This document shows positions 2,136 through 46,089 of a stretch of 48,991 nucleotides of DNA, one piece after another. Positions within the stretch are counted from its first letter, which is position 1, and each line of letters opens with the position of its first letter. The notes below the pieces were generated by a model. It did no database searches. It saw only the letters and a list, made by a program, of their open reading frames with translations, and was not told where the DNA came from. A program made the position numbers and the translations under genes. Origin of the DNA: Archaeoglobales archaeon (GTDB lineage: Archaea; Halobacteriota; Archaeoglobi; Archaeoglobales; Archaeoglobaceae); NCBI GenBank assembly GCA_003663025.1, contig QMZE01000003.1, positions 1-48,991 on the forward strand, given 5' to 3'.

Positions 2136-5100
2136 TGAGGTTCCAAGAAATCGAAACTTACAACCCGAGATCGAAGAGGACTGATGTGCTTAAAGACGAC
2201 TATCGGTGGTGCTTTGCTTACTATGCTTCCAAGAAGATGGGCAGAAGACTTCGAATAAGCTATAAACAAATTATCGATCTAGCTAGTAAGATAGCTGAAG
2301 AGCTTCACAGGCGAGGCATAGAGTTCCATCCGGAGAGGTACAACGAGCACGGCAAGGAGCTCTTTAGAAAGATAGCGAGGAGGTTAGCGAGGAAGGGCAT
2401 CATCCTCAAAGCGCTGGACGGTCTCTACCTCGTCGAACCGCATGCGAAGCTGATATGGAAGGGCATGAAGACCCTGATCGTTAAGGCGAGGAGATATGAG
2501 AATCTCCTCTTCTATCCCATGTACCTCTGCGGTGACAAGGTGTACGGGATAATTACTCTTACAGGCGTGACTGAGGTTGACGAGAACGGCTTCCAGAACC
2601 TGAAGAAGCACCATTTAGTCACCGATAAGGAAGCAAGGGAGTGGTGGGGCGACAGAAACAGATACTACGTTTACAAGTTCTCGTTCAAGAGGTTCGACAA
2701 GCCGAAGGAGTACGTCAGGCCTCAGGGAGCTCAGGTAAAGATAGATGACGTTCAGATCAAGAAGATGAAGAAGCCTTTCTCCCATCCTCTTGGTAAGGAT
2801 CGACAAGTTTCCATATTTTTGGAAAACCTTCCTTCTCACAAGGTCTATGTAGAGCCGTTCGCTGGCGGAGCTTCACTCTTCTGGAGGAAGGAGCCTGTCG
2901 CTAAGGAAGTACTGAACGATATAGACGAGCGGTATGTGTTTCTCCTCAAGTTCTTGAAGAACGCGTCGGACGAACAGTTGGAAAAGCTCAAGAACATGGA
3001 CTACATGCCGTCTGAGGAGAAGTTTGAGAGACTCAAGAAGACCAATCCAGACGATGACGTGGAGAGGGCGTACAAGCTCATCTACCTGATAATACACTCA
3101 TACGGAGGCAACATGGAGGACTACGCGCACAGGAAGAAGCTGAGGAAGTGCGGTTATATCACTAATCCTGAGGACTACAGAGAGCGCCTCAAGAATACCA
3201 TCATCACCAACAAGGACTTCGAGGAAGTGATGAAGGAGTACGACTCGCCTGACACGTTCTTCTACCTCGATCCTCCGTACATGGACGAGGATATCAAGGA
3301 AGATCCTGAAGCTTTTAAGAGGAGGCTGTTCGAGGCGTGTAAGAAGCTCAAGGGCAAGTTCCTTCTGAGCTTCAGCGATGATCCCCTCATCAAAAAGCTG
3401 TTCAAGGATGCAGGCTTCGAAGTGAAGAGCTTCCTCGCCAAGAGACCTTTAAGCAAAGACTATCCAATTAAACGAGAGCTATTGATAGCTAATTATCCAA
3501 TTAAGATACCGAAGCTCAAGAAATCTGACGTAATGTTGAAGTTCTTGGGCACTAGAGGATACGTCGAAGAGAAGTCTGAGTTGCATAATAAAAGAGCTTC
3601 TTTGCTGATAGACGACGGCAAAACGAAGCTGTTGATAGACTGGGGAGACGTGAACGGAGAGCTTCCCGACTGCGATGCGATAATCATCACACATGCGCAT
3701 CCAGATCATTTGTTTGGTCTGAAGAACAAGGAAATAGACGTCCCGGTGTTCATCACGGATGCGACGACGCACTCCGAGTACTACAGAGAAGGGGTCTACA
3801 AGTTCAGCAAGACGGTGTTCAAGCGGAGGAGTGCATTCAGAGTTGGGGATATCGAGGTAATAAGCGTTCCGGTACTGCACTCGACCAAAGCTCCCAATAT
3901 CGCTCTGTTCATCAATGTGGGTGGATACAGGATCTGCTACGCATCTGACGTCTTGAACATAAGGAAAAAGCACAGGGACAAGTTCTTGAGAGGGTGCGAC
4001 CTGTACATCGGCGATGGATCCACGCTGAGGGAAGACGGTCTTGTGAGGTGGGACGAGAAGAGGGATGAGGCGATAGGACATGCTGGAATACCCAGGCAGA
4101 TAAAGTGGTGCGAAGAAGCCGGTGTGAAGCGGATGATCTTCACGCACTTTGGATCCGAGCCGATAAAGCTCGGCAGGAAGCTCGAGGAGAAGCTCGCTGA
4201 ATTAGGCGCTGAGATGGCGTATGATGGATGGGTCACAAACGTATTAGTCAGCAAAGCTGTTAACTTAGAAGAGATAGACGATGAATATGTCGAGAAGCTC
4301 AGCGATAAGAAGCTGAGAGAGCTGTACGAGGAGCTCCATGAGATATACGAGCGAGAAGGGCGAATTACTGAGCCTCTTTTAAACGCTGAAATATTCGTCG
4401 AGAACGAGATGAAGAGGCGGGGCATGGAGAGAAACATAAACGACAAATTGAGTCAGGAGGCGAGCTTCTGGGTTCAGGAGTATCCGCCTTGGGAGAAGGA
4501 GAAGAAGATCACGCTCCAGGAAGTGATAGACTCATTTCCAGACGTCATCAAGATACCGGCTGACGTACCGGCCATCTACATAGTCGGAGGTCTTGCCAAT
4601 CGAGGATGGGTTACCCACCACGACATAGACATTCGAGTAGCTTCAGATAAGTACCTGCCAGAAGTAAAGCGAGCTCTGATACACGCATGCACGAGGAACG
4701 ACATACGGGAGAAGCTTCAGTTCATATTCGACTCAAGGGGCGGAATAGGTCTGTCAATACCGCTCTACGTGCCGGCGGAGGATGGGCTGAAGAAAGATGA
4801 AGAACTCAGATTAGGGAAGCCTTCTCAGCCCCAGAAGCCGGCTACGGGATGGCAGAAGAACGAGTTCTGGAAGATAGAAGATGCGTGGACGAAGTGGGGC
4901 GCATCTAGGATCGACAGGGGGATCATGGAGCAACCCAAATACGATGGGATGAGCTTTCAGTGGCACATTAAGGATGGCAAAGTGATAGGCGTCTTCACGG
5001 AAGACCAGCTGAGGAACAGAATCGATGCATTCAAAGAATCGGTCGCTGAGCTTCCAAAGCTTCTGAGGGCGAAGGATGCGATACTCGTTGCCGAGATGGT

Positions 5101-7081
5101 CGAATACTCAGATGAGGTTGCATATCCGCAGTACGAGAAGATGTGGATGAAGTACAAGCAGATCCCGAGAGAGGATCTGGTTAAATGGATCGCGGCTAGA
5201 CCTTCCTCTCTTGATGACAAGCGTGTGATATTCCACGTTCACGATCTGCTCTACCTTGACGGCGAGAAGTGGTATGACAAGCCAGCGATCGAGCGGTATG
5301 AGAAGCTAAAGGAGGTATTGAAAGAGGGCAAGCACTTCCACGTCGTTGAGTCCAAGACAGCTCACAACATGAGGGAGTTCTTCGAGTATGCTAATTGGGC
5401 GAGGTATTTCCCGAACTCTGAAGGTGCTGTCTTCAAGACAACTGATTCGATCTACAAGATCAGATACGACAGAGCTTCGAGGAATAAAGATTGGTGCTTA
5501 ACCGGTGGAAGCTATGTCCTAACAGAAAACGGATTTGAGCGAGTAGCTTATCTTAAACCGGGCGTTCTGGTCTTCGCAAAGGATGGCGAACTCCACAGAG
5601 TGCTTAGGATTGCAAGGCGGAAAATCGAACCTCACGAACAGCTATTCGAAGTCAAGGATTACCATGGATTAACCGTCAGATTGACTTCAGAACATGAAGT
5701 ACTAACAAGGGAATGCGGTTGGCAAGAATGCTCAGCCTCATTCGGATTAACTCCGGTATTTCCGCGATTGAAGATTCCTAAGGAAAAACCGCCTGAAGAG
5801 CTTTGTTTATCATGGCACGGTTACGAAAAGATCATAAAATGTACTAAAGAGTTTTGGAAGCTTGTTGGTTTCTGGGTTGCCGAAGGTTCGCTAGGGAATA
5901 ACCGAAACAAGAATTACAGACGAGGTGAATTCGAATTCTCCCAGAAAGACGATCAAATATTCTCTGAGCTCGCTGATTTGGCAGACAGAATACTGAAGGC
6001 AAAGGGGAAAAGGTATTGCTATGATGGAGTGAACCGGTACATCGTCTGGGACAAGCCCTTCTGTGATTGGTTGAGTAAGAACTTCTTAGATAAGAACGAT
6101 GATAAGACCCTTCCTTGGTTTATCGCATACCTTGATGATGAGAAGTTTGAGGCGTTCTGGGAAGGTCTTTGGCTCGGAGATCGAAAAGCTCCAGATCGAG
6201 ATGCGATCTCGACCTCCGATAACTCTCTCGCTGGGAGATTATTCGCAATTCTGAATGTTCGCGGTGAGGAAGTCGGTATTCACAAACAGAGAACCAATAG
6301 AAAGGACAATTTCACAATCACAAGATTGAAACGACCCACTCATAAAATATTAGTCAAAAGGCTTTCAACAGACCATCAGGATTTGGTTTACGATATTGAA
6401 GTGGAGAATGAAGATTCGTTCTTAACTGGAAATCTCGTGTTACATAACAGTAAGCTCAAGAACCTCAAGGAGCTCGATGTAATGGTTCTAAAGCCCCACC
6501 TCGTCGAGGGCACCAAAGACGTGTTCACGTGGCAGGGAGTTGTCGGTCCAATTCCTGAGAAAGACCTGGACAAGTACAGAGAGCGAGACATTATGGAGTT
6601 CAAGGGCAAGAAGTACCTGAGGATTGGGACGTGCTACAACGTGAAGGGCAAGAAGCCCGAGGGCAGCATCCTGACCGTAATGCCGATTCGAATAGAGAAG
6701 AACACAACCGAAGACGGCAAGATATACTACACCTGGATGTTCCCGAAGGCTGGGCTGTGGAGACCAGAGAAGAAGGAGCCTGACCCGATCGATGTGGTCG
6801 AAAAGCTCTCGAAGCTGGGGACGAGACCGTTTGAGAAAGCTGGAAACGAGAAAGTGATAAAGATAGAGCTTCCTCTGTGTCCCGAAAAGTACGCGTTCAA
6901 CGAGGAGATCTGCCCTCTCATTAACAGAGTTAAGATACTCGTGGATGGTGTCTGGAAGTCTGACAAGCCGAAGGTGAAGCTTAAGGTTCAGGAGCTGAAG
7001 TATCCGATTGACTGCAAGCTGGCTAACTATTATAGATGCAGGAGAGTGAAGCCGTACTACTATGGGTGGCGAGAGGAATGA
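2135..7081 (+). CDS. Giant fusion enzyme: adenine methylase, metallo-beta-lactamase fold, nucleotidyltransferase and ATP-dependent DNA ligase, with intein
   Basis: The 1648-codon frame encodes several domains in order. Residues 1-200 are an uncharacterised N-terminus with a PUA/ASCH-like look. Residues 212-455 are a Dam/D12-class N6-adenine methyltransferase (EPFAGGASLFW; catalytic YLDPPYMDE). Residues 468-700 are a metallo-beta-lactamase fold (HAHPDHLFG, YASDVLN, FTHFGSE). A helical linker follows, then residues 805-880 resemble a nucleotidyltransferase (IVGGLANRG...HDIDIRV). From about 890 it is an ATP-dependent DNA ligase: motif I KYDG (Lys935), motif III HDLLYLDG, motif IV EGAVFK, and motif V DWSKLK split by an intein at residues 1121-1438. 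After splicing the protein is about 1330 residues. It sits between portal and protease, so it may be a virion component. It overlaps portal by one base and the next gene by ATGA. Confidence 0.88.
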   Translation: MRFQEIETYNPRSKRTDVLKDDYRWCFAYYASKKMGRRLRISYKQIIDLASKIAEELHRRGIEFHPERYNEHGKELFRKIARRLARKGIILKALDGLYLVEPHAKLIWKGMKTLIVKARRYENLLFYPMYLCGDKVYGIITLTGVTEVDENGFQNLKKHHLVTDKEAREWWGDRNRYYVYKFSFKRFDKPKEYVRPQGAQVKIDDVQIKKMKKPFSHPLGKDRQVSIFLENLPSHKVYVEPFAGGASLFWRKEPVAKEVLNDIDERYVFLLKFLKNASDEQLEKLKNMDYMPSEEKFERLKKTNPDDDVERAYKLIYLIIHSYGGNMEDYAHRKKLRKCGYITNPEDYRERLKNTIITNKDFEEVMKEYDSPDTFFYLDPPYMDEDIKEDPEAFKRRLFEACKKLKGKFLLSFSDDPLIKKLFKDAGFEVKSFLAKRPLSKDYPIKRELLIANYPIKIPKLKKSDVMLKFLGTRGYVEEKSELHNKRASLLIDDGKTKLLIDWGDVNGELPDCDAIIITHAHPDHLFGLKNKEIDVPVFITDATTHSEYYREGVYKFSKTVFKRRSAFRVGDIEVISVPVLHSTKAPNIALFINVGGYRICYASDVLNIRKKHRDKFLRGCDLYIGDGSTLREDGLVRWDEKRDEAIGHAGIPRQIKWCEEAGVKRMIFTHFGSEPIKLGRKLEEKLAELGAEMAYDGWVTNVLVSKAVNLEEIDDEYVEKLSDKKLRELYEELHEIYEREGRITEPLLNAEIFVENEMKRRGMERNINDKLSQEASFWVQEYPPWEKEKKITLQEVIDSFPDVIKIPADVPAIYIVGGLANRGWVTHHDIDIRVASDKYLPEVKRALIHACTRNDIREKLQFIFDSRGGIGLSIPLYVPAEDGLKKDEELRLGKPSQPQKPATGWQKNEFWKIEDAWTKWGASRIDRGIMEQPKYDGMSFQWHIKDGKVIGVFTEDQLRNRIDAFKESVAELPKLLRAKDAILVAEMVEYSDEVAYPQYEKMWMKYKQIPREDLVKWIAARPSSLDDKRVIFHVHDLLYLDGEKWYDKPAIERYEKLKEVLKEGKHFHVVESKTAHNMREFFEYANWARYFPNSEGAVFKTTDSIYKIRYDRASRNKDWCLTGGSYVLTENGFERVAYLKPGVLVFAKDGELHRVLRIARRKIEPHEQLFEVKDYHGLTVRLTSEHEVLTRECGWQECSASFGLTPVFPRLKIPKEKPPEELCLSWHGYEKIIKCTKEFWKLVGFWVAEGSLGNNRNKNYRRGEFEFSQKDDQIFSELADLADRILKAKGKRYCYDGVNRYIVWDKPFCDWLSKNFLDKNDDKTLPWFIAYLDDEKFEAFWEGLWLGDRKAPDRDAISTSDNSLAGRLFAILNVRGEEVGIHKQRTNRKDNFTITRLKRPTHKILVKRLSTDHQDLVYDIEVENEDSFLTGNLVLHNSKLKNLKELDVMVLKPHLVEGTKDVFTWQGVVGPIPEKDLDKYRERDIMEFKGKKYLRIGTCYNVKGKKPEGSILTVMPIRIEKNTTEDGKIYYTWMFPKAGLWRPEKKEPDPIDVVEKLSKLGTRPFEKAGNEKVIKIELPLCPEKYAFNEEICPLINRVKILVDGVWKSDKPKVKLKVQELKYPIDCKLANYYRCRRVKPYYYGWREE
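5495..6448 (+). mobile_element. Intein with LAGLIDADG-type endonuclease in DNA ligase motif V
   Basis: A 318-codon in-frame insertion starts with Cys1 (CLTGGSYVLTENGF) and ends LVLHN followed by a Ser +1 residue. The N-terminal splicing block B is visible at LTSEHEVL, and the C-terminal blocks at YDIEVENEDSFL and VLHN. The middle contains a homing-endonuclease core typical of DOD inteins (LVGFWVAEGSLG; FWEGLWLGDR). It interrupts the ligase exactly before SKLK of catalytic motif V, so the ligase is inactive until splicing. Codon use (CGA, AAA, ATT, TTA) differs from the surrounding AGG/ATA-rich gene, which supports recent acquisition. Confidence 0.9.
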
Positions 7082-10077
7082 GGATAACTCAGGACATGCT
7101 GTTGAAAGAGGAGCCCAAGATTCCGTGGTCTAAGCCCATCTACTTAGAGCTCCCTCCGCCTGAGAAGAACGGCAAAGTGAGATATGTGCTACAGCACCAC
7201 TGGAGAGGCCGTAGCGTGCACTGGGACTTCAGGTGCGAAGTGAATAACCATTTGATAGGTTGGAGCGTAGCTTTTGATGAACCCGTAATCATAAGACGAA
7301 ATGGGATGATCGAGATTCTTCCAGCAGAGTGCATCATAAATTTTGGCGGAACGGGGCTTGAGATAAAAGAAGTGGATGGATTAGAAATTCTCACCGGAAA
7401 CGGATTCAGGAAGGTGAAACGAGCTGCTAGGCATATCTTTGAACATGATCTTGTGAGAGTCGTGACTAGACGAGGAGCCATAGAAGTTACGCCCTCTCAT
7501 TCATTATTCCAGAACGGAACTCCAATAAGAGCTGGGGATCTCAAGAAAGGCGATTCTATAGATTTAGCTGAACTTCAAGTAGATATCCCGAATCTGGAGG
7601 TTGATAAAGATTGGGCATGGCTTTTGGGATATTTCTGTGCAGATGGTTACGCCGCACGAAGAAAACAGTGGGAAGCATGGATTTCAGATGAGGATTTGAG
7701 CAAGCTTAAATCAGCAAAGCGGAAGCTAATAAAGTTCGGCATTCCCTCAAGGATTGAGAGACAGGATAAGAATTGCTGGCGACTCCGCATATTATGGGCT
7801 CAGCCCTTATTCTTTAATCTATGTTATGTTGTAAATAAGAATACTTCGACTCATCGCCGTTATAAAATCGTACCTAAATTAATACTAAATGCCGATAAGG
7901 ATGCACGAGATGCCTTCTTAGACGGATTCTATACAGGAGATGGACATCCAGATGGGTCTGGTATGAGCTTTTCGATTCATTCTAAGGCTTTAGGAGCTGG
8001 GATTCTATTCTTAGAGGCGAATCGAGGAAGAGATTTCGGAATAAGTTCGGTGAGGAAGTATAATTCGCTTAATATCTATGTTTATGGGAGAAAGCGGAAG
8101 CCATTAAAGCCACCGAATGAGATAATCGATATCTACAAAGTCAATCGAGGCAAGAACTGCTACGTTTATGATTTTGAGACTGAGGACGGGACATTCATAG
8201 CTGGCGTTGGCAAGATACTTGCTCATAATACGATACTCGACAACCCGAAGATAGACCACGCTCCCACGCTTGAAGAGCTTCCATCCCTGATCGACAAGCT
8301 CGACTGGACGTTCAGACCTGTACCCGGAATGAACAACAAGAAGTGCAGGTGTGAAACTAAAGCAAGACAGCCTAAAGTATGGCTGTTTTGGAAGGAGGAG
8401 TGGGATCCGTGCTCTGCGATTCCCTTTGACCAGCTCTGGAAGCTAGACGTAGGTACTTCTTACGAGGTTGAGGTAAAGCCGGATGAGCTGATAGTGAAGA
8501 TGGACACCGGCGAGGTATTCGAAGCCAAGCCGGGTACAGTGGGAGCGACTAGGTACGAACCGGGAAGATTCCTCATTGTTGATAAGGGATACGTAACATT
8601 CGGAGCTCAGAAGCCTTGGTACCACGAGTACTTCCTCGATTCGATAGCAAAGAAGAAGCACAGGCTGACGTTCGAGAAGATAAGGGTGAACATGAGGGCT
8701 GTGGTTCAGGCGGTGATAGACCCTGAGACGAAGAAGCCCAAGCCGGGCAAGTTCGAGCTTATGTGGGAGGGATGGGTGCCTAAAGACCAGGACCCCTATG
8801 CGGTCGAGAGAGGGAGGAAGAAGGGCTGGGTACCTCCTAAGGGCTTCATTCCGATTCCCAAGTGGTGGATCGAAAAGCACAGGAAGGAGTTCGAGGAGTG
8901 GCTTGAGTGGGTGAAGGAGAAGTGGGCTGAGATAAAGGAGCTGATGAAAGCCGAGGGAGAGTACACGCTCCAGCAGATGAGCTGGAAAGGGCAGAAGGTA
9001 ATCCGTGATATTCCGGTGATGCACTGGTTCTTAAATATCAAACAGGGTGATAAAATCAGGACTTGGGAGCTGTGGTATAATCCTCTTTATGTGCATCCGA
9101 CTGCGGCAGGATACGTCGGTCAGGCTCCGAAGAAGTGGTTCGAGTTCGAGGGCAAGCTTAAACCGGGAGAGCTGTTCAACCCGCGGAAGAGGCTTAATGC
9201 AGACGTGAAGATACTCGACAAAGGCAAAGTATTCGTGGACGCCAAAAGGGTGAACGGACGAGAAGTGCTCGTGCTGTCGTTCTCAGGCAAGCTGGGCAAG
9301 TTCTGGAAGCTTGAGCAGGAGGAGCGGGGATCTGACCTCTACTCGTTCAGCAAGTCGAGCATCAAGAAGGCGTTCGGTAGCTTCGTGCTTCAGAAGCACT
9401 CGTGGAAGGGAGGATCGCACTACGATATCAGAATTGACGAAGGAGGAGATTACCTGCTTGAGTGGTCGCTCAACAAAGACCCGCGGAAGTTCAAAATAGA
9501 TGAGTCCGAGAAGGTGATCCTCAAGAAGTGCTACGACAAGAGCTGGCTCACGTTTGAGGGAAAGAGGAAAGTAGGAGGCGTAATAACCGACGTTAAGATT
9601 CTCGACAGCGGTAAGGTCGACTTCATAGAGAAGTCTCAGCTGTTCAGGAGCTTTGTCTTCCACGGTGACTCCCTGAAGGGCTACTACGTCCTGAAGTCGG
9701 ACGGCAAAGAGTGGAAGTTCATCAGGTCAGCTCTCCCGGGCATGAAGAAACAGCTGAGGTACGAGGAGAAGTCTGGATATATCAGAGTGCACCTGCACGA
9801 CATAAGGGACTTCACGAGGTGCGAGGGCGAGGAGAAAGCGAAGCGCTATAAGATACCGAAGCTACCAGAAGGGGTCGAAGCTAATATCTGTTTGTTCCCC
9901 AGACCAGGAACGATACACGGCGCTAAGATCCAATCGCTGAAGTTCGACAAGAGGCTCTGGAGCATAGAAAGGATTAAAAGAGAGTTCGACTTTAAACCAT
10001 TCGTTGAGTGGGAAGGGGTGCAGGTGAGGGATGAGCACAGGCGAGTACGTCCTCGTACCTTTAGACCAAGCTTCTGA
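7078..10077 (+). CDS. LigD-type 3'-phosphoesterase repeat protein with intein
   Basis: The 999-residue frame starts at ATG 7078, overlapping the previous stop (ATGA) behind a GAGAGGA SD. It contains repeats of the LigD 3'-phosphoesterase (PE) core. PE1 is LQHHWRGRSVHWDFR, with the two His and the Asp expected of the active site. A second, degenerate copy is LQQMSWKGQK near residue 640. PE3 is LQKHSWKGGSHYDIR near residue 765. PE enzymes trim 3'-ribonucleotides and phosphates so a ligase can seal ends, so this gene makes functional sense next to the ligase fusion. An intein at residues 63-384 splits PE1. After splicing the protein is about 677 residues. It overlaps the protease gene by 47 bases. 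Confidence 0.82.
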   Translation: MRITQDMLLKEEPKIPWSKPIYLELPPPEKNGKVRYVLQHHWRGRSVHWDFRCEVNNHLIGWSVAFDEPVIIRRNGMIEILPAECIINFGGTGLEIKEVDGLEILTGNGFRKVKRAARHIFEHDLVRVVTRRGAIEVTPSHSLFQNGTPIRAGDLKKGDSIDLAELQVDIPNLEVDKDWAWLLGYFCADGYAARRKQWEAWISDEDLSKLKSAKRKLIKFGIPSRIERQDKNCWRLRILWAQPLFFNLCYVVNKNTSTHRRYKIVPKLILNADKDARDAFLDGFYTGDGHPDGSGMSFSIHSKALGAGILFLEANRGRDFGISSVRKYNSLNIYVYGRKRKPLKPPNEIIDIYKVNRGKNCYVYDFETEDGTFIAGVGKILAHNTILDNPKIDHAPTLEELPSLIDKLDWTFRPVPGMNNKKCRCETKARQPKVWLFWKEEWDPCSAIPFDQLWKLDVGTSYEVEVKPDELIVKMDTGEVFEAKPGTVGATRYEPGRFLIVDKGYVTFGAQKPWYHEYFLDSIAKKKHRLTFEKIRVNMRAVVQAVIDPETKKPKPGKFELMWEGWVPKDQDPYAVERGRKKGWVPPKGFIPIPKWWIEKHRKEFEEWLEWVKEKWAEIKELMKAEGEYTLQQMSWKGQKVIRDIPVMHWFLNIKQGDKIRTWELWYNPLYVHPTAAGYVGQAPKKWFEFEGKLKPGELFNPRKRLNADVKILDKGKVFVDAKRVNGREVLVLSFSGKLGKFWKLEQEERGSDLYSFSKSSIKKAFGSFVLQKHSWKGGSHYDIRIDEGGDYLLEWSLNKDPRKFKIDESEKVILKKCYDKSWLTFEGKRKVGGVITDVKILDSGKVDFIEKSQLFRSFVFHGDSLKGYYVLKSDGKEWKFIRSALPGMKKQLRYEEKSGYIRVHLHDIRDFTRCEGEEKAKRYKIPKLPEGVEANICLFPRPGTIHGAKIQSLKFDKRLWSIERIKREFDFKPFVEWEGVQVRDEHRRVRPRTFRPSF
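7264..8229 (+). mobile_element. Ser1-type intein with homing endonuclease inside the phosphoesterase domain
   Basis: This 322-codon insertion begins SVAFDEPVIIRRNG and ends GKILAHN, followed by Thr +1. The start resembles inteins whose first residue is not Cys (compare the KlbA type, which opens with a similar DEP motif). Block B is VTPSHSLF. The DOD endonuclease core shows LLGYFCADG and FLDGFYTGDG, and the C-terminal block is YVYDFETEDGTF. Splicing would join HLIGW to TILDNP and restore the first PE domain. Codon use again differs from the extein, with more CGA and AAA. Two inteins in adjacent genes of one repair function is notable. Confidence 0.88.
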
Positions 10078-14771: not shown

Positions 14772-14996
14772 TCACTTGTTTTTCTTAACTTCAACGATTT
14801 TTAGGTCGCCATCTGCCAAATCGTTTAGCAGGCCTTTAACTATCTGTGCGAACTCTTTGTTACTTTGTGTACCGACGAATTTCAGCATTTTTTGAACTTC
14901 TGGACTTGAACGTTTGCCGAAGTTAACCCAGAAATTGCCTTTTGTTGATTTTTGTACTTGTTCTTTCACGTAGCGATCTCTCAAATTCATTTTCAT
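14772..14996 (-). CDS. Small basic protein, paralogue of the gene at 19267; candidate regulator
   Basis: About 74 residues. I use ATG 14996; TTG 14999 and ATG 14990 are alternatives. The C-terminal half, FVGTQSNKEFAQIVKGLLND, matches FGTSSPKELGQILVGLAKD in the plus-strand gene at 19267, so the two are paralogues. The conserved part looks like a short beta strand followed by an amphipathic helix. It is first in a divergent unit facing the early promoter and its repeats, so a repressor-like function is attractive but not shown. Confidence 0.72.
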   Translation of the reverse strand: MKMNLRDRYVKEQVQKSTKGNFWVNFGKRSSPEVQKMLKFVGTQSNKEFAQIVKGLLNDLADGDLKIVEVKKNK

Positions 14997-15030
14997 CAAC
15001 TCTCATTTAGCGTAATAATATTCGTTAAAC

Positions 15031-15074: not shown

Positions 15075-15106
15075 AATATTAAATAAATACGTATTTATTT
15101 AATATT
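15075..15106. repeat. 32-bp palindrome, copy 1 (perfect)
   Basis: AATATTAAATAAATAC followed by its exact reverse complement. Near-identical copies occur at 22282 and 46058 and, as far as I can see, nowhere else. All three lie in promoter regions, so this is probably the operator of a dimeric viral regulator. Confidence 0.9.
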
Positions 15107-15484: not shown

Positions 15485-16024
15485 ATGAGAGTTAAAAAGT
15501 TACCGACCTGTTCCAAAACCGATAAAGCCGAGTTTTCCAGCGATTACATCAATGCCATAAAGCAATTGCCATACGAACTGCTGACCAAGGAGGAGAAATG
15601 CGTTATCAGGCGTTTGGAGCGTGAGAGTTTAGCATACGAGCGGTTTCTTAGGCGCATGGGCATAGCATACAAAGGCCAGTTGACTCCAACTGAAGTCAAG
15701 ATCCTCAGACGGGCTAGGAAGCGGGATCTGGAGCACCAGAAGGTGGTCGACGAGATACGGCGCTCCAGGCTCGAACCTACGCCTCAACAGCTCCACAAAG
15801 TGCCGACTCAGCGTGAAAAACCAATGTTCTTCTTCAGGCTCTGGCCAACCGGCGAATCATGCAGTTATGAGCGGTTCATGCGGGAGTACTGGCCAGCCAT
15901 CAAAAAGCGGTATGAAAAGCTCGAAGCCGAACAGCGGAAGCGTAAGCGCAGGTCCAGGCGGGTCCGTGAGAATGCGTATGCCGATTTCAAAAAACGGCTT
16001 CTGGGAGGTGGTCAAACTGATTGA
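15485..16024 (+). CDS. Basic early protein with the shared C-terminal tag
   Basis: A 179-residue, strongly basic protein, first gene of the early operon. Its N-terminal two thirds are helical with many Arg/Lys (VIRRLERESLAYERFLRR). I do not recognise a family. Its end, NAYADFKKRLLGGGQ, is almost the same as the end of the GHKL protein at 17301 (NPYKDFKQRLLGSSQ) and resembles the gene at 19048. The last codons (CTG GGA GGT GGT) double as the SD of the next gene. Nucleic-acid binding is plausible from charge only. Confidence 0.8.
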   Translation: MRVKKLPTCSKTDKAEFSSDYINAIKQLPYELLTKEEKCVIRRLERESLAYERFLRRMGIAYKGQLTPTEVKILRRARKRDLEHQKVVDEIRRSRLEPTPQQLHKVPTQREKPMFFFRLWPTGESCSYERFMREYWPAIKKRYEKLEAEQRKRKRRSRRVRENAYADFKKRLLGGGQTD

Positions 16025-16184
16025 ACAAATAAGTCTGAAGATCATAGCACTGGTTTGCGAAATCACCCGACTCAGCCGTCTTCCTGATGTCAGCTCTGAA
16101 AGGATCTCGAGAATTAGACTTCAACTCCTCGGAGAACTTAAACGACAAATCTCGGAGCTTGAGGTGATGGTTGCTAATGACTGA
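16017..16184 (+). CDS. Small helical protein, probable CTG start
   Basis: About 55 residues, helical (LIEQISLKIIALVCEITR; LLGELKRQISELEV). The SD GGAGGTG at 16004-16010 is followed six bases later by CTG 16017 in this frame. An in-frame GTG at 16008 lies inside the SD itself, and TTG 16021 is in another frame that stops at once. The gene overlaps the upstream stop by eight bases and the next ATG by eight. Function unknown. Confidence 0.55.
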   Translation: MIEQISLKIIALVCEITRLSRLPDVSSERISRIRLQLLGELKRQISELEVMVAND

Positions 16185-16359
16185 AAGCTGTGTCCTGTTC
16201 TTCAAGCGCCATGTTCAGTGCTTCGGTTCGTTGAAGTGTCCAACTAACTCCACCTGCCCTCTCTTTTATTTGTGCTATATGGTCAAGCTGTCACGCGGAC
16301 TTGGCTCCATCTCCGCTCCAAGCGGGTGGAGAGGAGAGACCAAGTTAAGGAGGTGGTAG
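16177..16359 (+). CDS. Small cysteine-rich protein whose 3' end contains a leader hairpin
   Basis: A 60-residue protein from ATG 16177. It has closely spaced cysteines (CFGSLKCPTNSTCPLFYLC) that could bind zinc or an iron-sulphur cluster. Its C-terminal codons are the same bases that form hairpin leader A for the next gene, so coding and RNA structure overlap. The tail GLGSISAPSGWRGE is therefore probably constrained by the RNA. Function unknown. Confidence 0.6.
   Translation: MTESCVLFFKRHVQCFGSLKCPTNSTCPLFYLCYMVKLSRGLGSISAPSGWRGETKLRRW
16300..16358 (+). promoter_or_regulatory. Structured RNA leader A before the TTG gene at 16361
   Basis: Layered stem-loop: CTTGG pairs with CCAAG, CTCC with GGAG, then a 9-bp stem (16310-16318 with 16324-16332) closed by loop CAAGC. 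A single A bulges on the 5' side and AGA on the 3' side. TTAAGGAGGTG, a strong SD, follows immediately. Copies B (16817) and C (17236) keep the same layers while the inner stem sequence changes with compensating bases. Confidence 0.8.
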
Positions 16360-16360
16360 T

Positions 16361-16612
16361 TTGATAAACGTATGTGAAGGTAAGGATATCCAGAGAAGTG
16401 AGGGCAATCCTTGGAATTCTTGGGAGGCTTACTTGGATGACGAGGGCAGACCAATCAAACCATACAGTTTTGTTACAGGTGGTTGGTTGCGTTTCTTCCA
16501 ACACCTCAAGGAATGCGAGAAATGTCGTAAAGCCAACAACATAAGCCTTAGAGAAGTCAGAGAAGAACTTGAGTCTCTTGAAAAGGAATGGAAGGAGGTA
16601 ATGGGCAATTGA
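16361..16612 (+). CDS. Small protein with HxxxCxxC motif
   Basis: An 83-residue protein starting at TTG 16361 behind leader A. A possible zinc-binding motif, HLKECEKCRKAN, sits near residues 47-58 and is followed by an acidic helix (REVREELESLEKEWKEV). The H-x3-C-x2-C spacing resembles anti-sigma and other zinc-binding adaptors, but no partner is evident. Its stop codon overlaps the next TTG start (TTGA). Confidence 0.72.
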   Translation: MINVCEGKDIQRSEGNPWNSWEAYLDDEGRPIKPYSFVTGGWLRFFQHLKECEKCRKANNISLREVREELESLEKEWKEVMGN

Positions 16613-16773
16613 ATGAGGAAATTATTGATGAATTACTGACCACCCTCAATTTGCTCCGGCATGATACCGACCATATAAAAGCTCACCTTAGTGCTCTGGT
16701 CAGAGAGCTCCAAGAGTTGAACAAAACTCTTCAAAGCTTTCAAAATTTCAAAATTGTTATAAGGACTAAATAG
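16609..16773 (+). CDS. Small coiled-coil protein
   Basis: A 54-residue protein from TTG 16609, with SD AAGGAGGT nine bases upstream; the longer frame beginning at 16588 would lack an SD. It is a leucine-rich amphipathic helix (HLSALVRELQELNKTLQ), likely a coiled coil. It is coupled to the upstream gene and followed by a T-tract. Function unknown. Confidence 0.65.
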   Translation: MNEEIIDELLTTLNLLRHDTDHIKAHLSALVRELQELNKTLQSFQNFKIVIRTK

Positions 16774-16789
16774 GATTCAAATTCCTTCC

Positions 16790-16877
16790 CCACTTTTTTT
16801 TCTTCTTCTCCTCTTTCTTGGCTCCATCTCTCATCAAGTCGATGAGAGAGGAGAGATCAAAGTTGGGAGGTGAAATA
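16790..16877 (+). promoter_or_regulatory. T-tract plus structured RNA leader B
   Basis: An oligo-T run (CCACTTTTTTTTCTTC) resembling a terminator is followed by leader B. CTTGG and CTCC pair outward, and a perfect 9-bp stem TCTCTCATC/GATGAGAGA (16827-16835 with 16841-16849) closes on loop AAGTC. GGGAGGTG follows, then TTG 16878. The outer pairing on the 3' side (TCAAAG) is weaker than in copies A and C. Confidence 0.8.
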
Positions 16878-17207
16878 TTGGATATAAAAATAAGACAACT
16901 CTTTAGTGGACAAGAGACGTTCTGTCTACCACCAAAGCAAAGCGGGCAGTATCTCCGTATGTTTCCTAACGCACCAACCCAGAACGGGTTGGTGGTCTGC
17001 AGAGTTCCAGAGGAATACAAAGTTTCGGGGCAAGCAGGGTCCATAAAAATCGATGGCACCATCATCGAGCATCCAAACGGCTATTCATGGTTCATCCTAG
17101 TTTCCAAAAAATGGCACTACACCAAGGCGTTTGCTGGCATAGCAAAAAGTGTTCAAGAGGCGAAGAAGCAAATCCAAAAATTGTTCCTCCAAATCAATCC
17201 TAACTAA
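16878..17207 (+). CDS. Unknown early protein behind leader B
   Basis: About 109 residues from TTG 16878; the ATG at 16818 would place the start inside the leader hairpin. The sequence is mixed alpha/beta (NGLVVCRVPEEYKV, NGYSWFILVSKKWHY) with a helical C-terminus. No family recognised. It is flanked on both sides by T-tract/hairpin leaders, so it may be an independently regulated unit. Confidence 0.72.
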   Translation: MDIKIRQLFSGQETFCLPPKQSGQYLRMFPNAPTQNGLVVCRVPEEYKVSGQAGSIKIDGTIIEHPNGYSWFILVSKKWHYTKAFAGIAKSVQEAKKQIQKLFLQINPN

Positions 17208-17209
17208 TC

Positions 17210-17300
17210 TCTCTCTCCTTTTTTTTCCTCTTGTTCTTGGCTCCATCTTTGCTCAAACGAGTAAAGAGGAGAAACCAAGTTAAGGAGGTGATATGAGAAG
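17210..17300 (+). promoter_or_regulatory. T-tract plus structured RNA leader C
   Basis: A run of nine T's in a pyrimidine-rich context precedes leader C. CTTGG/CCAAG and CTCC/GGAG are the outer layers, and TCTTTGCTC/GAGTAAAGA with one G-U pair (17246-17254, 17259-17267) is the inner stem, with loop AAAC. TTAAGGAGGTG follows. A minicistron ATG at 17293 (nine codons) overlaps the true TTG start at 17301. Confidence 0.8.
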
Positions 17301-18656
17301 TTGGGAGAGTGGCACGAGATAGCCTATCCCATCTCGCTCCAGTATAGAAAGCACTGGGGCGAGTGGGAGGCGATAAGAGAGATAGTCCAGAACAGCTTGG
17401 ACGAGTGCGAGTCCTTTGAAATCCTCCAGACCGATGAGGGTACTGTGATCCGAGACAGCGGTTCAGGATTGGCAGTTAAGCACTTACTCTTCGGAGTGTC
17501 AGAGAAGAAGTCTAAGGACTCCAGAGGTCGATTCGGTGAGGGCCTGAAGATAGCTCTCGTGGTCTTAAAGCGGTTGGGCTACGACGTCACGATAAGGTCC
17601 AACGGTCTTGAAGTGAAAACTTCAACTCACGAAATAGAGGGCGAGCGGTGCTTGAAGCTCCTGTACCGCAAGATCGATAACCACACAGACGGCACTGAGG
17701 TGATAATACACGGCTATAAGGGCTCAGCATTCGAAGACAGGTTCACAATAAATAAGACTCCCGTCTGGAGAGGAACAACGATCTTCGGCGACAAGGCAGA
17801 AATCTACGAGGAACAGCCAACGAGGCTCTATGTCAAGGACATTTATGTTCAGGACCTGCCAAACGCTATGTTCAGCTACAACCTGTGGGACGTCAGGCTC
17901 GAAGAGTCGAGGAATATAGCCGACTCGTGGAGCTTGAGCTACGAGATTGGTCGGTTGTGGATGAATGTGGGCGACTACAATCTCCTGGTCAAGTTCATGG
18001 AAGCCATTAAGCTCAAGAAGTGGGAGTACCACAATTGCTATTTTAACTACTCCAGCAACCACCCACACGAGTTCGTCAAGGCGTTCAAAGAGGTCTTCGG
18101 GCAGAATGCATTCGTTAAATGCTCAAATACATGGAGTTCAGAGGCTGAGTGGAGAGGCGGTGTCCCCGTCGAGTTACCGTCCGAGCTTCAAGAAGGATTC
18201 ATCAGATCAGGAATACCAACAGACGAAGCATTCGTCCTGATGAAGTCTGGCAGAACAAGAGTCCCGGTTGACGACTCAGAGCTCTCCGAGACTCAACTCG
18301 AAAACTTACTGAAGCTCAGGAAGGTAGCAAAGCGACTCACCGAGCACCGGGATAAGAAAATCCAGGTGAGGGCGTTTAAACTCCCTCCGGATGAAGAGGG
18401 AGTCTGGATGAAGCAGTCCGGTGTAATAGCCATCTCGACCAGCGCCCTCAACAGCTTCCTCCATGCCTTCTCAGTGTTCCACCACGAGCTCACCCACGCG
18501 CTCTACGGAGTCGGAGATGGAACACACGGCATGATCCATGCACTGTCCAAATGTGCGGCTCTTATAGCCTCCGAGTTCGACATACCTGGTAAGGTCAGAA
18601 TCCCAAGAAATCCGTACAAGGATTTCAAGCAGAGGCTTCTTGGCTCCAGCCAATAG
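17301..18656 (+). CDS. GHKL-type ATPase fused to an HExxH metallopeptidase-like domain
   Basis: This 451-residue protein starts at TTG 17301. The N-terminal GHKL (Hsp90/MutL/histidine kinase) ATP-binding fold shows the N box EIVQNSLDE (Asn31), G1 box DSGSG (52-56) and G2 box GRFGEG (76-81). The C-terminal region has HHELTHALYG with zinc-protease motif HELTH at 395-399. It ends with the tag NPYKDFKQRLLGSSQ, shared with the gene at 15485. ATP-driven conformational change coupled to a peptidase is a reasonable model; substrates are unknown. It sits behind leader C, implying controlled translation. Confidence 0.85.
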   Translation: MGEWHEIAYPISLQYRKHWGEWEAIREIVQNSLDECESFEILQTDEGTVIRDSGSGLAVKHLLFGVSEKKSKDSRGRFGEGLKIALVVLKRLGYDVTIRSNGLEVKTSTHEIEGERCLKLLYRKIDNHTDGTEVIIHGYKGSAFEDRFTINKTPVWRGTTIFGDKAEIYEEQPTRLYVKDIYVQDLPNAMFSYNLWDVRLEESRNIADSWSLSYEIGRLWMNVGDYNLLVKFMEAIKLKKWEYHNCYFNYSSNHPHEFVKAFKEVFGQNAFVKCSNTWSSEAEWRGGVPVELPSELQEGFIRSGIPTDEAFVLMKSGRTRVPVDDSELSETQLENLLKLRKVAKRLTEHRDKKIQVRAFKLPPDEEGVWMKQSGVIAISTSALNSFLHAFSVFHHELTHALYGVGDGTHGMIHALSKCAALIASEFDIPGKVRIPRNPYKDFKQRLLGSSQ

Positions 18657-18721
18657 CACCAACGCTTTACGCTATATAGTGAAGAAGAGAGTTCAGAGTT
18701 TAAGTTGGAGAGCTGGTCAGG

Positions 18722-19051
18722 ATGGGCTTGACTCTCGACGAGTTAAAGAAGCGAGTGTATGAAGAGGCGGAAAAGATAGACGACTGGAAGCTCTACATCC
18801 ACTTAAGGCGCCTGAAGATAAGACGCCTAACGCCGAACCTCAGAACCTTTCATATCCTCAAAGTCCTCATAGCCATGAGGAGGCTTCATTTGCCCATCAA
18901 CTCCAATACCGTGACCTGGATCTTCCCGAACGAACACAACCTCTTCAACAAGCTCCACAACCTCGGAGACAAGCACCTGATAATCTTAAAACGGAAGGAA
19001 AGAACCTACGAGTGGATCTTGAACGAAGAACTGCTTGGTGACTTCCTATGA
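18722..19051 (+). CDS. Unknown basic protein, possible winged helix
   Basis: A 109-residue basic protein from ATG 18722. Residues 25-85 have a helix-helix-strand pattern with many Arg/Lys (LHLPINSNTVTWIFPN, HLIILKRKERTYEWIL), compatible with a winged-helix DNA-binding domain but without a diagnostic signature. Its stop overlaps the next ATG (ATGA), so the two are coupled. Role unknown. Confidence 0.7.
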   Translation: MGLTLDELKKRVYEEAEKIDDWKLYIHLRRLKIRRLTPNLRTFHILKVLIAMRRLHLPINSNTVTWIFPNEHNLFNKLHNLGDKHLIILKRKERTYEWILNEELLGDFL

Positions 19052-19260
19052 AAGAGCGCATCAGACTTCCATCGGATGCACTCATGAAAGCCTCAAAGAT
19101 CTGGGGACTTAGAGAGACAGAAACTGAATACATCGTTGAGTCTCCAAACTTCATATTCTTTTGTGAAAAGCTCGTTTGGAAGAAAGATAAGCCTCGGGAG
19201 AGGACTGACCCGTACAGGCGGTTCCTCCAGACGAGGCTCCTAGCCTCGAACAAGAGGTAG
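19048..19260 (+). CDS. Small protein with a related C-terminal tag
   Basis: A 70-residue protein overlapping the upstream stop. The body is unknown. The end, DPYRRFLQTRLLASNKR, resembles the C-termini of the proteins at 15485 and 17301 ([N/D]-[P/A]-Y-x-x-F...RLL). Three unrelated early proteins sharing a terminal peptide suggests a common binding partner. Confidence 0.7.
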   Translation: MKERIRLPSDALMKASKIWGLRETETEYIVESPNFIFFCEKLVWKKDKPRERTDPYRRFLQTRLLASNKR

Positions 19261-19266
19261 TTAAAG

Positions 19267-19470
19267 ATGGACTTTAGAAAGTATGTTGCGAAGAAAGTAT
19301 CCACCGGAGAGCCGAAGAAGCACTACATAGGGCCCATCGAGAACCCAGAGGACTGGACAGTGATAGTCGAGGTCTTCGGCACGAGCTCTCCTAAAGAGCT
19401 CGGCCAGATACTCGTCGGCCTTGCTAAGGACCTGAAAGCCGGTAAGGCTCAGATATCGTTCACCGACTAA
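19267..19470 (+). CDS. Small protein paralogous to the minus-strand gene at 14772
   Basis: 67 residues from ATG 19267. The C-terminal half (VFGTSSPKELGQILVGLAKD) matches the 14772 protein, and the N-terminal FRKYVAKKVSTG resembles its DRYVKEQVQKSTKG. One paralogue is expressed with early genes and the other divergently, as might occur with antagonistic regulators, but there is no direct evidence of function. Confidence 0.72.
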   Translation: MDFRKYVAKKVSTGEPKKHYIGPIENPEDWTVIVEVFGTSSPKELGQILVGLAKDLKAGKAQISFTD

Positions 19471-22281: not shown

Positions 22282-22313
22282 AATATTAAATAAATATGTA
22301 TTTATTTAATATT
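22282..22313. repeat. 32-bp palindrome, copy 2
   Basis: AATATTAAATAAATAT/GTATTTATTTAATATT, with only the centre mismatched. It lies just upstream of the TATA box for the MoxR/VWA/replication operon, matching the copies at 15075 and 46058. Confidence 0.9.
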
Positions 22314-22395: not shown

Positions 22396-23418
22396 ATGGA
22401 CCAACAGTTGAGAGATCAATTGGTCGAGTGTTTTAGGGAGAAAGGAGACTGGACAGTAAGCGAGCTTCTCGAACGGCTTCAGGTCTCTTCTCAGGAGCTT
22501 CTGAGCCAGCTTTCGATTCTGAGAAGTACAGGTCAGATAAAGAAAGTGGGTCGCAACACTTGGGTTGCTGTGAACATACCCGGTAAGTCAAGCGAAGAAG
22601 AGAACCCGCTCATACCGAAGAACGTCATCTATGATGACTGGCAGGGCATAGTGTCCAGACTTCTCAAGTGCTACAAGCTCGGATTGAACGTGCTCCTCAT
22701 CGGTCCAGCCGGTACAGGGAAGACCGAGGCCGTGCGCAAGGTGGCTGAGATCCTCAAGAAGCCTCTTAGGATCATTCCATGCTCTCTTAGAACGAGAGAG
22801 CACCACATAATAGGTAGGCTCGATACGGATGAAAATGGCAACCTGTACTTCAAGAAGGGACCTCTGATTCTGAGTATGGAGGAGGGAGGCATCTGCTACC
22901 TCGACGAGCTGAATATTATGGAGCCTGATGCGCTTATGAGGGTGGACGAGGCATTAGACCAGAGGAAGGAGATAAACGTAGAGGGTCAGACGTTCAGGGC
23001 GAAAGAAGGATGGTGGTGCGTAGCCTCGATAAATCCTCTCGACAAGCTCCACCTAGGCACTAAGACGCTCTCATCTCAGATAATCTCGAGATTTCCTGTC
23101 AAGCTGAGGCTCGCTTACCCAGACGTCTCCACCGAATACAACATAGTCAAGCTCCACGTACCCGAGATAGCCAAGTATTCGTCTAAGATGATCGAGCTCA
23201 TCAAAGCGATTCAGTTCTTAAGGACCACCGATCTGCCCTACGTTCCGACTATCAGGGAGAGCATAGCGTTAGCGAAGCTGATAGCCAGCGACGTCAAGCC
23301 CTACGAGGCGGTTAAGATGGTCCTCATAGACGTTTACGCTCAGTGGGGTGAAGTCGTCATTCGTCAGGCTACCGAATTAATTGAAAGCAAGATAGGGAAA
23401 TTGGAGGTGTTTGTTTGA
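22396..23418 (+). CDS. MoxR/CbbQ-family AAA+ ATPase with N-terminal winged helix
   Basis: 340 residues. The first 60 look like a winged helix-turn-helix (WTVSELLERLQVSSQELLSQ). The AAA+ core has Walker A GPAGTGKTE near residue 103, Walker B CYLDELNIM near 168, the sensor region ASINPLDK, and an arginine-finger-like SQIISRF. MoxR ATPases act as chaperones with VWA-domain partners, and a VWA gene follows two genes later. A comparable MoxR/VWA pair is known in Acidianus two-tailed virus. It is the first gene behind palindrome copy 2. A role in virion assembly or metal insertion is inferred. Confidence 0.87.
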   Translation: MDQQLRDQLVECFREKGDWTVSELLERLQVSSQELLSQLSILRSTGQIKKVGRNTWVAVNIPGKSSEEENPLIPKNVIYDDWQGIVSRLLKCYKLGLNVLLIGPAGTGKTEAVRKVAEILKKPLRIIPCSLRTREHHIIGRLDTDENGNLYFKKGPLILSMEEGGICYLDELNIMEPDALMRVDEALDQRKEINVEGQTFRAKEGWWCVASINPLDKLHLGTKTLSSQIISRFPVKLRLAYPDVSTEYNIVKLHVPEIAKYSSKMIELIKAIQFLRTTDLPYVPTIRESIALAKLIASDVKPYEAVKMVLIDVYAQWGEVVIRQATELIESKIGKLEVFV

Positions 23419-23672
23419 GCGATCCGATAGAGGAGTCCATAGCGCTGACGCTTACGGAATCCGTTGGAGAGGAGATAACGGTAGTGGCGATGAAGAGCAG
23501 GAAGCAGAGCTCGCTCCCTTACTCAAGACTCCCGAGTGGTAAGATAGTCCTCTTCGAGGAGCGAGATCCGTTCTCCTACAGGATAAAGCCCGGAGATGTG
23601 GTTGACTGCGTTATCAAGATAGTCAAACCGAGCTATATAATAGTTAAACCAATCAGGATAAGGAGGCGCTAA
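23415..23672 (+). CDS. Small OB/TRAM-like protein
   Basis: 85 residues from TTG 23415, overlapping the MoxR stop. The C-terminal SYRIKPGDVVDCVIKIVKPSY recalls TRAM/OB small beta barrels that bind nucleic acid. It lies between the MoxR and VWA genes, spaced as one operon, and may be an accessory to that pair. Confidence 0.65.
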   Translation: MSDPIEESIALTLTESVGEEITVVAMKSRKQSSLPYSRLPSGKIVLFEERDPFSYRIKPGDVVDCVIKIVKPSYIIVKPIRIRRR

Positions 23673-23673
23673 T

Positions 23674-25275
23674 ATGATCAAGCTGGTCGATCCAGATGAA
23701 GTGCTGAGCTTTTTAGCGAGGGCGTGGAGCGAAGACAAGGAGACGCTGATAAGGCGGGATAGTTGGTTCTTCGCCAACGTGGAGAGCAAGATCATATTCC
23801 TCCCGAGCTACTTCCAGAAGCTCCCCATGGAGAAGCATATGAACCTGGCGAACATAAGGAGGTGGAGGTTCTATAGGTTCTCAGCATGGCATGAGGCACA
23901 GCATATACGCTTCAGTCCCTTCAAGCAGGAAATCATCCCGAAGATAGAGGAGAAGCTTGAGAAGATGGGATTTAGCGTCAAGGGCTCCCTCGTAGAAGCT
24001 CTCGTTGACGTCTTCGAGGACTACAGGATCGAAAAGCTCGGCCTCAGGGACTACAAGTACGAAGAGGAAAAGAGGTTCGTGGATGAGATAGGAAGAATAG
24101 CTTCGGAGAAGGCATTTGAGAAGATAGCTGATGAATGGAACATATATAGCGCGGTCTTGACCGGGTACCTCCTCTTCGATGCCAAGATACCGAACACCGT
24201 AGCTGTAGATCCGGCATTCCTCCAGGCTCTCGATGAAGTCAAGGAGAATATGCTGAAGATAGAGACCGTCGAGGACTTGGAGGATGCGGTCGTCAAGAGC
24301 TATCCGCTACTTCACGAACACTGGCCCAAGTACATAACATGCCCAGATGCGAGGGGCATACGCCTCGTGGGAGCCACCCTCATCTTCGAGGGCAACGTCA
24401 AGCTCGACGCTGAGATCCCAGAGGAGATAAAAGAGGAGTTCAGAACTATGATGAAGTCCATCCAGAAGTTCAACGAGGAGATGAGGGATTTGCAGAAGCT
24501 CGCATCCTCGCTTGGAGGAAAAGTGCAGACCGAATTAGGCGACTGGAACCTGATATACGATCCCGTGAGGACATACGCAGAGATACTCAAGAACCAGCTG
24601 ACGAAGTGGAAGGTGGGATGGGTCGAGCACCTGAGCCATGTTGGAGACGACATAGAGCCCGAGTCTTACCTCCTCTCCAGGTACTACGATTCATACGAGA
24701 AGCCGAAGTTCCTGATAGACGAGGAACAGCTCTCCCAGAAGGCTGACTTACTACTGCTCGTGGACATGTCGGGTTCGATAGATCAGCATCTCGAGCTCTA
24801 CAAGCGGAGCCTGGCAGTGATAACCTCTGCTCTCGATTACGTCGGTACTAAGTTCTCGTTGTTCACATTCTCGGGTAAGAAGATATCAGTTATCAAGGAC
24901 TTATCGACTCCATTCGACATTCACACGAAGGAGAGGGTAGCAGGTCTCGAGGCGAGCGGAGGCACTCCTCTCGGCCATATTCTCAGAGTCCTCAACGAGA
25001 AGTACCTCGGTGGAATCGATAGGATAGTTGTGGTAACGGATGGATTCCCCGACAATCCCAAGGTTGCTTTGGAAGAGATTAAAAGGATAAGAGAGCGAGG
25101 TAAGAAGCTTGGAGTCATGCTCCTCCAGAGCGAGGAAGTATCTAACCTAATCGGTTTCGATCTTTATAGGGAGTTCGAGTCGCTCCTGTCGAGAATTCCA
25201 AACAGCTACATCCGCGTCGGGAGCGTGAAGGAGCTCCCCTTGCAGTTCTTCAGGCTCCTCATGTACATGAGGTGA
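23674..25275 (+). CDS. VWA-domain protein with HExxH motif, partner of MoxR
   Basis: 533 residues from ATG 23674, SD GGAGG. The N-terminal half carries HEAQH at residues 73-77, followed by a conserved acidic helix (VEALVDVFEDYRIEKLGL), like zincin-related domains of CobT/NorD-type VWA proteins. The C-terminal VWA domain has the MIDAS motif DMSGSI near residue 364, a TPLG loop (GGTPLGHIL) and VVTDGFP. VWA proteins present substrates to MoxR ATPases, so the pair likely remodels a target protein or complex, possibly viral structural or replication proteins. Confidence 0.85.
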   Translation: MIKLVDPDEVLSFLARAWSEDKETLIRRDSWFFANVESKIIFLPSYFQKLPMEKHMNLANIRRWRFYRFSAWHEAQHIRFSPFKQEIIPKIEEKLEKMGFSVKGSLVEALVDVFEDYRIEKLGLRDYKYEEEKRFVDEIGRIASEKAFEKIADEWNIYSAVLTGYLLFDAKIPNTVAVDPAFLQALDEVKENMLKIETVEDLEDAVVKSYPLLHEHWPKYITCPDARGIRLVGATLIFEGNVKLDAEIPEEIKEEFRTMMKSIQKFNEEMRDLQKLASSLGGKVQTELGDWNLIYDPVRTYAEILKNQLTKWKVGWVEHLSHVGDDIEPESYLLSRYYDSYEKPKFLIDEEQLSQKADLLLLVDMSGSIDQHLELYKRSLAVITSALDYVGTKFSLFTFSGKKISVIKDLSTPFDIHTKERVAGLEASGGTPLGHILRVLNEKYLGGIDRIVVVTDGFPDNPKVALEEIKRIRERGKKLGVMLLQSEEVSNLIGFDLYREFESLLSRIPNSYIRVGSVKELPLQFFRLLMYMR

Positions 25276-34333: not shown

Positions 34334-34639
34334 ATGAGAGAAGCAGAGATAGATAAGCTGATAAGGAGCAAGCCCAACGTCTTGAGCTGGAGAGACGACC
34401 TGACGAAGGTGAAGAACGGAAGGGACACAGGCGAACCTTGTATTACGGTGTTCGTTGCGAGGAAAGTAAAGGCATCGGAGCTCAGACCAGACGAGCTGAT
34501 ACCTCCAGAGATAGACGGTAAGAAGACAGACGTGGTGGAGCTCGCACCAGAGGACTTTGAAATAGGAGAAACTAAAGTTGGCAAACTACCTCCCAGCGTT
34601 CAGAAGAGGATAGCGGGAGGAGTGAAGGACTTTGAGTAG
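34334..34639 (+). CDS. Companion of the cysteine protease (propeptide- or chaperone-like)
   Basis: 101 residues from ATG 34334. The segment RDTGEPCITVFVARKV, then SELRPDELIPPEIDGKKTDV, resembles a small domain often found next to serine proteases in prokaryotes, where it precedes the catalytic domain. Here it is a separate gene translationally coupled to the papain-like gene. It may act as propeptide, inhibitor or folding aid. Confidence 0.65.
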   Translation: MREAEIDKLIRSKPNVLSWRDDLTKVKNGRDTGEPCITVFVARKVKASELRPDELIPPEIDGKKTDVVELAPEDFEIGETKVGKLPPSVQKRIAGGVKDFE

Positions 34640-46057: not shown

Positions 46058-46089
46058 AATATTAAATAAATATATATTTATTTAATATT
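46058..46089. repeat. 32-bp palindrome, copy 3 (perfect, extended to 34 bp)
   Basis: AATATTAAATAAATAT followed by its exact reverse complement, flanked by G and C that extend the symmetry to 34 bp. It lies between the divergent tail and terminase promoters, so one site could control both late operons. Confidence 0.92.

Follow-up and report, generated by a model that had tools for sequence, protein, structure and literature searches.

A conserved C-terminal peptide on three otherwise unrelated proteins of a tailed virus from an Archaeoglobales assembly

Three viral proteins and their common C-terminal peptide

The subject of this study is a short peptide at the C-termini of three proteins, here called A, B, and C, that are encoded in contig QMZE01000003.1 of the Archaeoglobales archaeon assembly GCA_003663025.1. 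The whole stretch of DNA analysed (the window, 48,991 nucleotides) is the 49-kb genome of a tailed virus. It can be closed to a circle, with a 123-base direct repeat common to both ends and the large terminase gene split across them. It encodes a portal protein, prohead serine protease, major capsid protein, tape measure, and tail genes, and it sits inside an assembly of 1.87 Mb. The host of the virus is probably archaeal. Four records of the same virus group in IMG/VR were available for comparison: L003/V58, which is nearest to the window, L002/V57, L048/V62, and L025/V59, the last being a fragment.

Protein A (15485–16024, plus strand) is an open reading frame (ORF) of 179 residues, basic and predicted to be all-helical, with orthologues in the four IMG/VR records. 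It matched no Pfam or PHROG family above cut-off, and its AlphaFold model, made of helices at a low pTM of 0.35, gave nothing significant in a search of PDB and viral folds. Protein B (17301–18656, plus strand; 451 residues), whose start codon is TTG as in the relatives, has a GHKL-type ATPase domain and a HExxH (HHELTHA) metallopeptidase-like domain. An earlier note on this DNA had named it a GHKL ATPase/HExxH protein, and that assignment is borne out by the HHELTHA motif, by a strong match of residues 6–309 to the phage GHKL ATPases of phrog_6077 (E 4.3e-43), and by a weak match to Pfam HATPase_c_3 (E 2e-4) that lies under the curated cut-off. The B family is broad in phages (97 phage records, E up to 0.01); the AlphaFold model of B was poor (mean pLDDT 50) and unfit for a fold search. 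Protein C (19048–19260, plus strand) is an ORF of 70 residues with no family assigned and with orthologues in three IMG/VR records. Between B and C lies protein D (18722–19051, plus strand; 109 residues), which does not carry the peptide, has a stop codon that overlaps the start of C, and matched no Pfam or PHROG family. No homologues of A or of C were found in annotated phage records, and none of A or B in the genome contigs searched. Directly after C is a protein of 67 residues (19267–19470, plus strand) that by eye has the look of a distant paralogue of a 75-residue protein at 14772–14999 (minus strand).

The C-termini in the window, RENAYADFKKRLLGGGQTD in A, RNPYKDFKQRLLGSSQ in B, and TDPYRRFLQTRLLASNKR in C, each stand directly before the stop codon, and the peptide that they share was located exactly where the earlier note had placed it. 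This tail is ~12 residues long, follows the pattern [ND][PA]Y-x-x-F-x-[KQ], and has its first residue 13–20 residues ahead of the stop. The tail of A (NAYADFKKRLLGGGQTD, 15971–16021, plus strand) is kept in five viruses, and those of B (NPYKDFKQRLLGSSQ, 18609–18653, plus strand) and C (DPYRRFLQTRLLASNKR, 19207–19257, plus strand) are each kept in four. Each of the four relatives has the tail on every A, B, or C gene that it contains: NAYADFKKRILGNE, NAYELFRKRFVGGE, NAYELFKKKFSGR, and NAYELFRKKFVGGE on A; NPYKDFKQRILNSSQ, NAYEKFKQKFAKQ, and NAYRKFRQRYSKSSSKRSNR on B; DPYRRFLQTRLGK, NPYKKFIQMRLGR, and NPYRKFIQMRLSR on C. Asn or Asp at position 1 (N/D1), Ala or Pro at position 2 (A/P2), Y3, F6, and K/Q8 are kept in 13/13 tails, and after position 11 the residues vary in length and sequence. 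The tails of the relatives support an ungapped alignment of C (N/D1 P/A2 Y3 x x F6 x K/Q8), and the one-residue gap by which its “RLL” had earlier been set under “RLL” is accordingly dropped. Two internal sequences of A resemble the motif, LAYERFLRRMG (8–11 bits, inside the noise) and CSYERFMREYW, and neither is claimed as a copy. A literature search found no report of phage proteins with a common C-terminal peptide of this type.

Homologues lacking the tail were sought, as the earlier note had proposed. Close homologues all keep it; distant phage homologues of B are without it, which we read as the mark of a separable add-on rather than as refuting a tag. The most complete of them, from an Exiguobacterium phage, has both the ATPase and the HExxH parts and ends just where the tail of B begins, and three further phage homologues also end without it. 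In B, the tail comes after the folded part. Because these distant homologues are tail-less, the tail was either gained in this lineage or lost elsewhere, and is separable from the body of B.

Tests against chance and selection on the peptide

That the bodies of A, B, and C are unrelated, as had been claimed, is supported by whole-protein profile–profile comparison, which aligned nothing outside the tails: A/B and B/C align in the tails only, and A against C gave nothing significant. When the C-terminal 24-mers of the window were compared with 200 shuffles, the A/B pair scored 59 against a shuffle maximum of 48 and was the sole window-only pair above chance. The C/B pair scored 34, close to what the best pair reached on average in the shuffles, and in the window alone the best triple was not unusual. 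For this reason C is not secure from one genome; judged with the tails of the four IMG/VR relatives, the case for its tail appears good. Position-specific profiles built from the tails of one protein were run over the 13,828 11-mers of 66 window proteins. The profile of A ranked the tail of B first, that of B ranked the tail of A first and the tail of C second, and that of C ranked the tail of B first. Across 1282 ORF ends of the window and its relatives, the 13 tails scored 24–29.5 bits and the next ORF end 13.1, a result that shows separation and not significance, as the profile was trained on the 13 tails themselves. In the proteome-wide chance test called for by the earlier note, the A/B and B/C similarities survive and the A/C similarity is weak.

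A fourth C-terminus came close in some of these comparisons. A tail-module protein of 878 residues with a LamG-like domain (38428–41061) ends in NAMRTFTKRYKVYRR (38428–38472, minus strand), which ranks second and third of the 13,828 11-mers for the A and B profiles and is kept in four viruses, as NALRTYSKYHKVYKR and NALRTFTKRRKVYER in relatives. It has Met or Leu in place of the invariant Tyr and scores ~12 bits, a value inside the noise of the ORF ends as a whole; we regard it as a weak version of the tail, possibly due to chance.

In each gene, synonymous changes are found among the tail codons, and the third codon position changes more than either of the others. It is therefore the peptide that is conserved and not the DNA; codons of the tail differ both within and between genes. 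Position 10 is of particular interest, as the pair of residues in A and B is L/L in the window, I/I in V58, F/F in V57, and F/Y in V62. The codons at this position differ between A and B (e.g., ATT and ATA in V58), which indicates parallel change and not copying, and gene conversion between the tails is ruled out on the same ground. C does not track the changes in A and B. Overall, the motif at the C-termini of these three proteins is real and is conserved within one virus lineage.

Regulatory repeats and other genes of the window

Two kinds of repeat lie near these genes. An AT-rich palindrome, TTAAATAAATnnnnATTTATTTAA, has three intergenic copies, at 15079–15102 before the A operon, at 22286–22309 before an AAA/VWA operon, and at 46062–46085 between the divergent tail and head operons. 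No copies are expected by chance, two copies are also present in V58, and the palindromes are probably operators of one viral regulator. The earlier note had called A, B, and C early proteins, a label that was an assumption: the palindrome upstream of the A operon also stands at the other two promoter regions, including that of the head and tail genes. The second repeat is a leader hairpin of ~56 nt, directly before three genes including B (16300–16355, 16817–16872, and 17235–17290) and present in L003 near 475. Its layout is CUUGGCUCC-A-stem-GGAGAnACCAAG, followed by a GGAGGUG ribosome-binding site, and the inner stem differs in sequence between copies with the pairing kept. No credible match was found in Rfam, and the hairpin is possibly a new cis-regulatory RNA.

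Several other genes of the window deserve mention. Between the portal and prohead protease genes is a fusion protein of 1648 residues (2135–7081) that joins a D12 adenine methylase, a metallo-beta-lactamase fold, and an ATP-dependent DNA ligase; it has an intein-like insert, and its V57 counterpart has 1337 residues. Next to it is a LigD 3'-phosphoesterase-like protein with a LAGLIDADG insert (7036–10077). This is an odd location for DNA-repair enzymes (2135–10077), and they are perhaps packaged in the particle. At 22396–25275, a MoxR/AAA_5 ATPase is followed by a VWA (CoxE-like) protein, a pair that is kept in relatives. A viral papain-like (C1) cysteine protease (34632–35318; Pfam E 4e-37) has a C-terminal extension that is variable among relatives.

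A putative docking motif, its alternatives, and known systems

We hypothesize that A, B, and C dock through this tail at their C-termini to a single partner, probably encoded by the virus, and consider the chances of this to be about even. The tail would be a short linear motif on three proteins of different function, and its form is probably a short helix with N/D-P/A as cap. Its Y3, F6, and hydrophobic residue at position 10 or 11 would plug into one common partner, and in this way A, B, and C would be gathered at one site in the infected cell. As in shared short linear docking motifs, the peptide is common to otherwise unrelated proteins and is kept while its flanks vary. A Tyr and a Phe exactly three residues apart, an N/D-P/A helix cap, and a hydrophobic residue about a turn later make up the picture of a motif that docks into a specific pocket.

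That the tail binds a partner, that this partner is the same for A, B, and C, and that it is viral are steps that we infer. A DNA-pattern scan of 59 host-class genomes, made with one strict tail pattern, found no convincing host protein ending in that pattern. Of its 51 matches in all, two were the viral A and B, and the remaining near-C-terminal matches, considered as possible host mimicry, lay in short or unconvincing frames (the longest of 224 residues). A looser pattern was no commoner in the own genome than a reversed control. With no convincing host carrier of the strict pattern in these genomes, and with a pocket that has apparently shifted among close viruses, we favour a partner encoded by the virus over a conserved hub of the host; rapid evolution of a viral pocket would account for the parallel change better than a host pocket under conservation.

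Several points weigh against a common docking motif. In the AlphaFold model of B the tail forms a short helix of its own, but with a pLDDT of ~28–39 the confidence is very low; in the model of A the tail merges with a long helix. The profile of C places the tail of A at rank 24, so that C matches B well and A poorly; since A and C recognise each other poorly, B acts as the bridge between the tails. The tail of C does not itself fit the strict DNA pattern of the host scan. Finally, the covariation of A and B at position 10 is suggestive only, because the four genomes on which it rests are few and related, with common branches.

The main rival is that the tail is a virion-loading tag. It would bind to the inner face of the procapsid, to the scaffold part of the prohead protease, to the portal, or to a tail component, and A, B, and C would be carried within the particle until their ejection into the host. 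We consider this unlikely, though some points favour it indirectly. The prohead serine protease has a long charged, scaffold-like C-terminal region, the palindrome of the A operon recurs at the head/tail promoter region, and the tail-module protein at 38428–41061 carries its weak version of the peptide. By analogy, loading could follow the precedents of T4, in which short shared terminal peptides load internal proteins (PMC5694885), and of encapsulins, in which C-terminal peptides load cargo into HK97-fold shells (PMC8346489). However, no cleavage site was recognised in the tails, the head module does not include the A, B, and C genes, a distant homologue of B is found among nucleotide-metabolism genes, the tail is unlike the encapsulin consensus, and the structural fourth carrier falls within noise.

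Less probable still is homotypic assembly, in which the tails would pack together and by themselves join A, B, and C into one complex. The genes lie within 4 kb, and direct packing in a core would make hydrophobic position 10 change in step in A and B, as it does; but for a stable bundle a length of ~11 residues is very short, and C does not follow these changes. An invariant Tyr with an N/D-P/A cap is also more typical of a specific pocket.

We consider it improbable that the tail is an amphipathic helix for membrane targeting like the C-terminal tail of MinD. The tails share with such helices a short, basic, C-terminal character with a few bulky hydrophobic residues, and FKKRLLGG is superficially like the end of E. 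coli MinD. The tails differ in their low amphipathicity and their invariant Tyr, Phe, and cap residues. Their helical moments were mostly no better than those of same-residue shuffles (p 0.02–0.66, with values <0.05 in two B tails only), so that a hydrophobic moment above that of shuffled sequence is not a general property of the tails; the moment was weakest for C, and mean hydrophobicity was low, and negative for two B tails. Lipid-binding helices tolerate hydrophobic exchange, whereas Y3 and F6 are invariant here.

A processing site or degron, recognised by a viral or host protease or unfoldase, appears equally improbable. The virus does encode a prohead protease, a papain-like protease, and the AAA/VWA pair, and B itself carries HExxH, but nothing ties the tail to the viral proteases or to the AAA/VWA pair, there is no conserved cleavage-like residue, and the residues after position 11 are variable. 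Of the functions suggested in the earlier note, docking to a shared partner or a role as targeting tag agrees with every line of evidence, and for a protease cleavage site there is nothing specific.

A chance similarity or a translated nucleic-acid element is disfavoured and very improbable, for although the C/B pair is not above the best shuffle pairs in the window alone and the tail DNA of B shares CTTGGCTCCA with the leader hairpin repeat, that match is gone from the B gene of the nearest relative, the profile tests with relatives speak against chance, and a DNA or RNA element is rejected on the codon changes inside the tails and on an Rfam scan that was negative save for one chance-level miRNA match.

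If the tail is a common docking plug, three proteins that are unknown or odd, the basic helical A, the GHKL/HExxH enzyme B, and the 70-residue C, would belong to one pathway, and the peptide would serve as a ready bait for the partner. It could also yield a portable tag for targeting in tailed viruses of this little-studied group.

Known systems resemble the tail in different respects. The MIM1 motif of ESCRT-III is C-terminal and of the LxxRL type. The tail has the same C-terminal position, and its A and B versions in two viruses have an F/L-x-x-R-L-like spacing; however, its invariant N/D1 and Y3 are not part of MIM1, and R-L is not kept in the other relatives. This reading was rejected, as the MIT domain (PF04212) had no match in 11 host-clade genomes (the own genome, 72% complete, and 10 relatives), with control matches obtained in Sulfolobus. 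The phage GHKL ATPases of phrog_6077 are like the body of B, from which the four tail-less phage homologues differ at the C-terminus. Encapsulin targeting peptides are, like the tail, short C-terminal peptides on unrelated enzymes, in their case cargo bound by an HK97-fold shell, but their cargo-loading consensus, SDGSLGIGSLKRS (PMC8346489), is unlike NPYxxFKQRLL, and by eye none of the tails resembles it. No encapsulin is involved here, and the virus is an uncultured one.

A further parallel is with the capsid targeting sequence (CTS) of phage T4, which is an N-terminal propeptide of 10–20 residues on internal proteins and Alt that is cut off by the prohead protease (PMC5694885). The tail is not of that type, being C-terminal and with no sign of cleavage. 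In both cases, one short terminal peptide is found on several functionally different viral proteins, with one destination in T4 and, putatively, in the virus described here. It is conceivable, though we would not expect it, that three or more different effectors, and perhaps the tail-module protein too, are recognised by a viral hub through one C-terminal plug and are loaded together into the particle or onto a single intracellular machine. In that case the tail would be to this tailed virus, whose host is probably archaeal, what the targeting sequence is to T4, but at the C-terminus.

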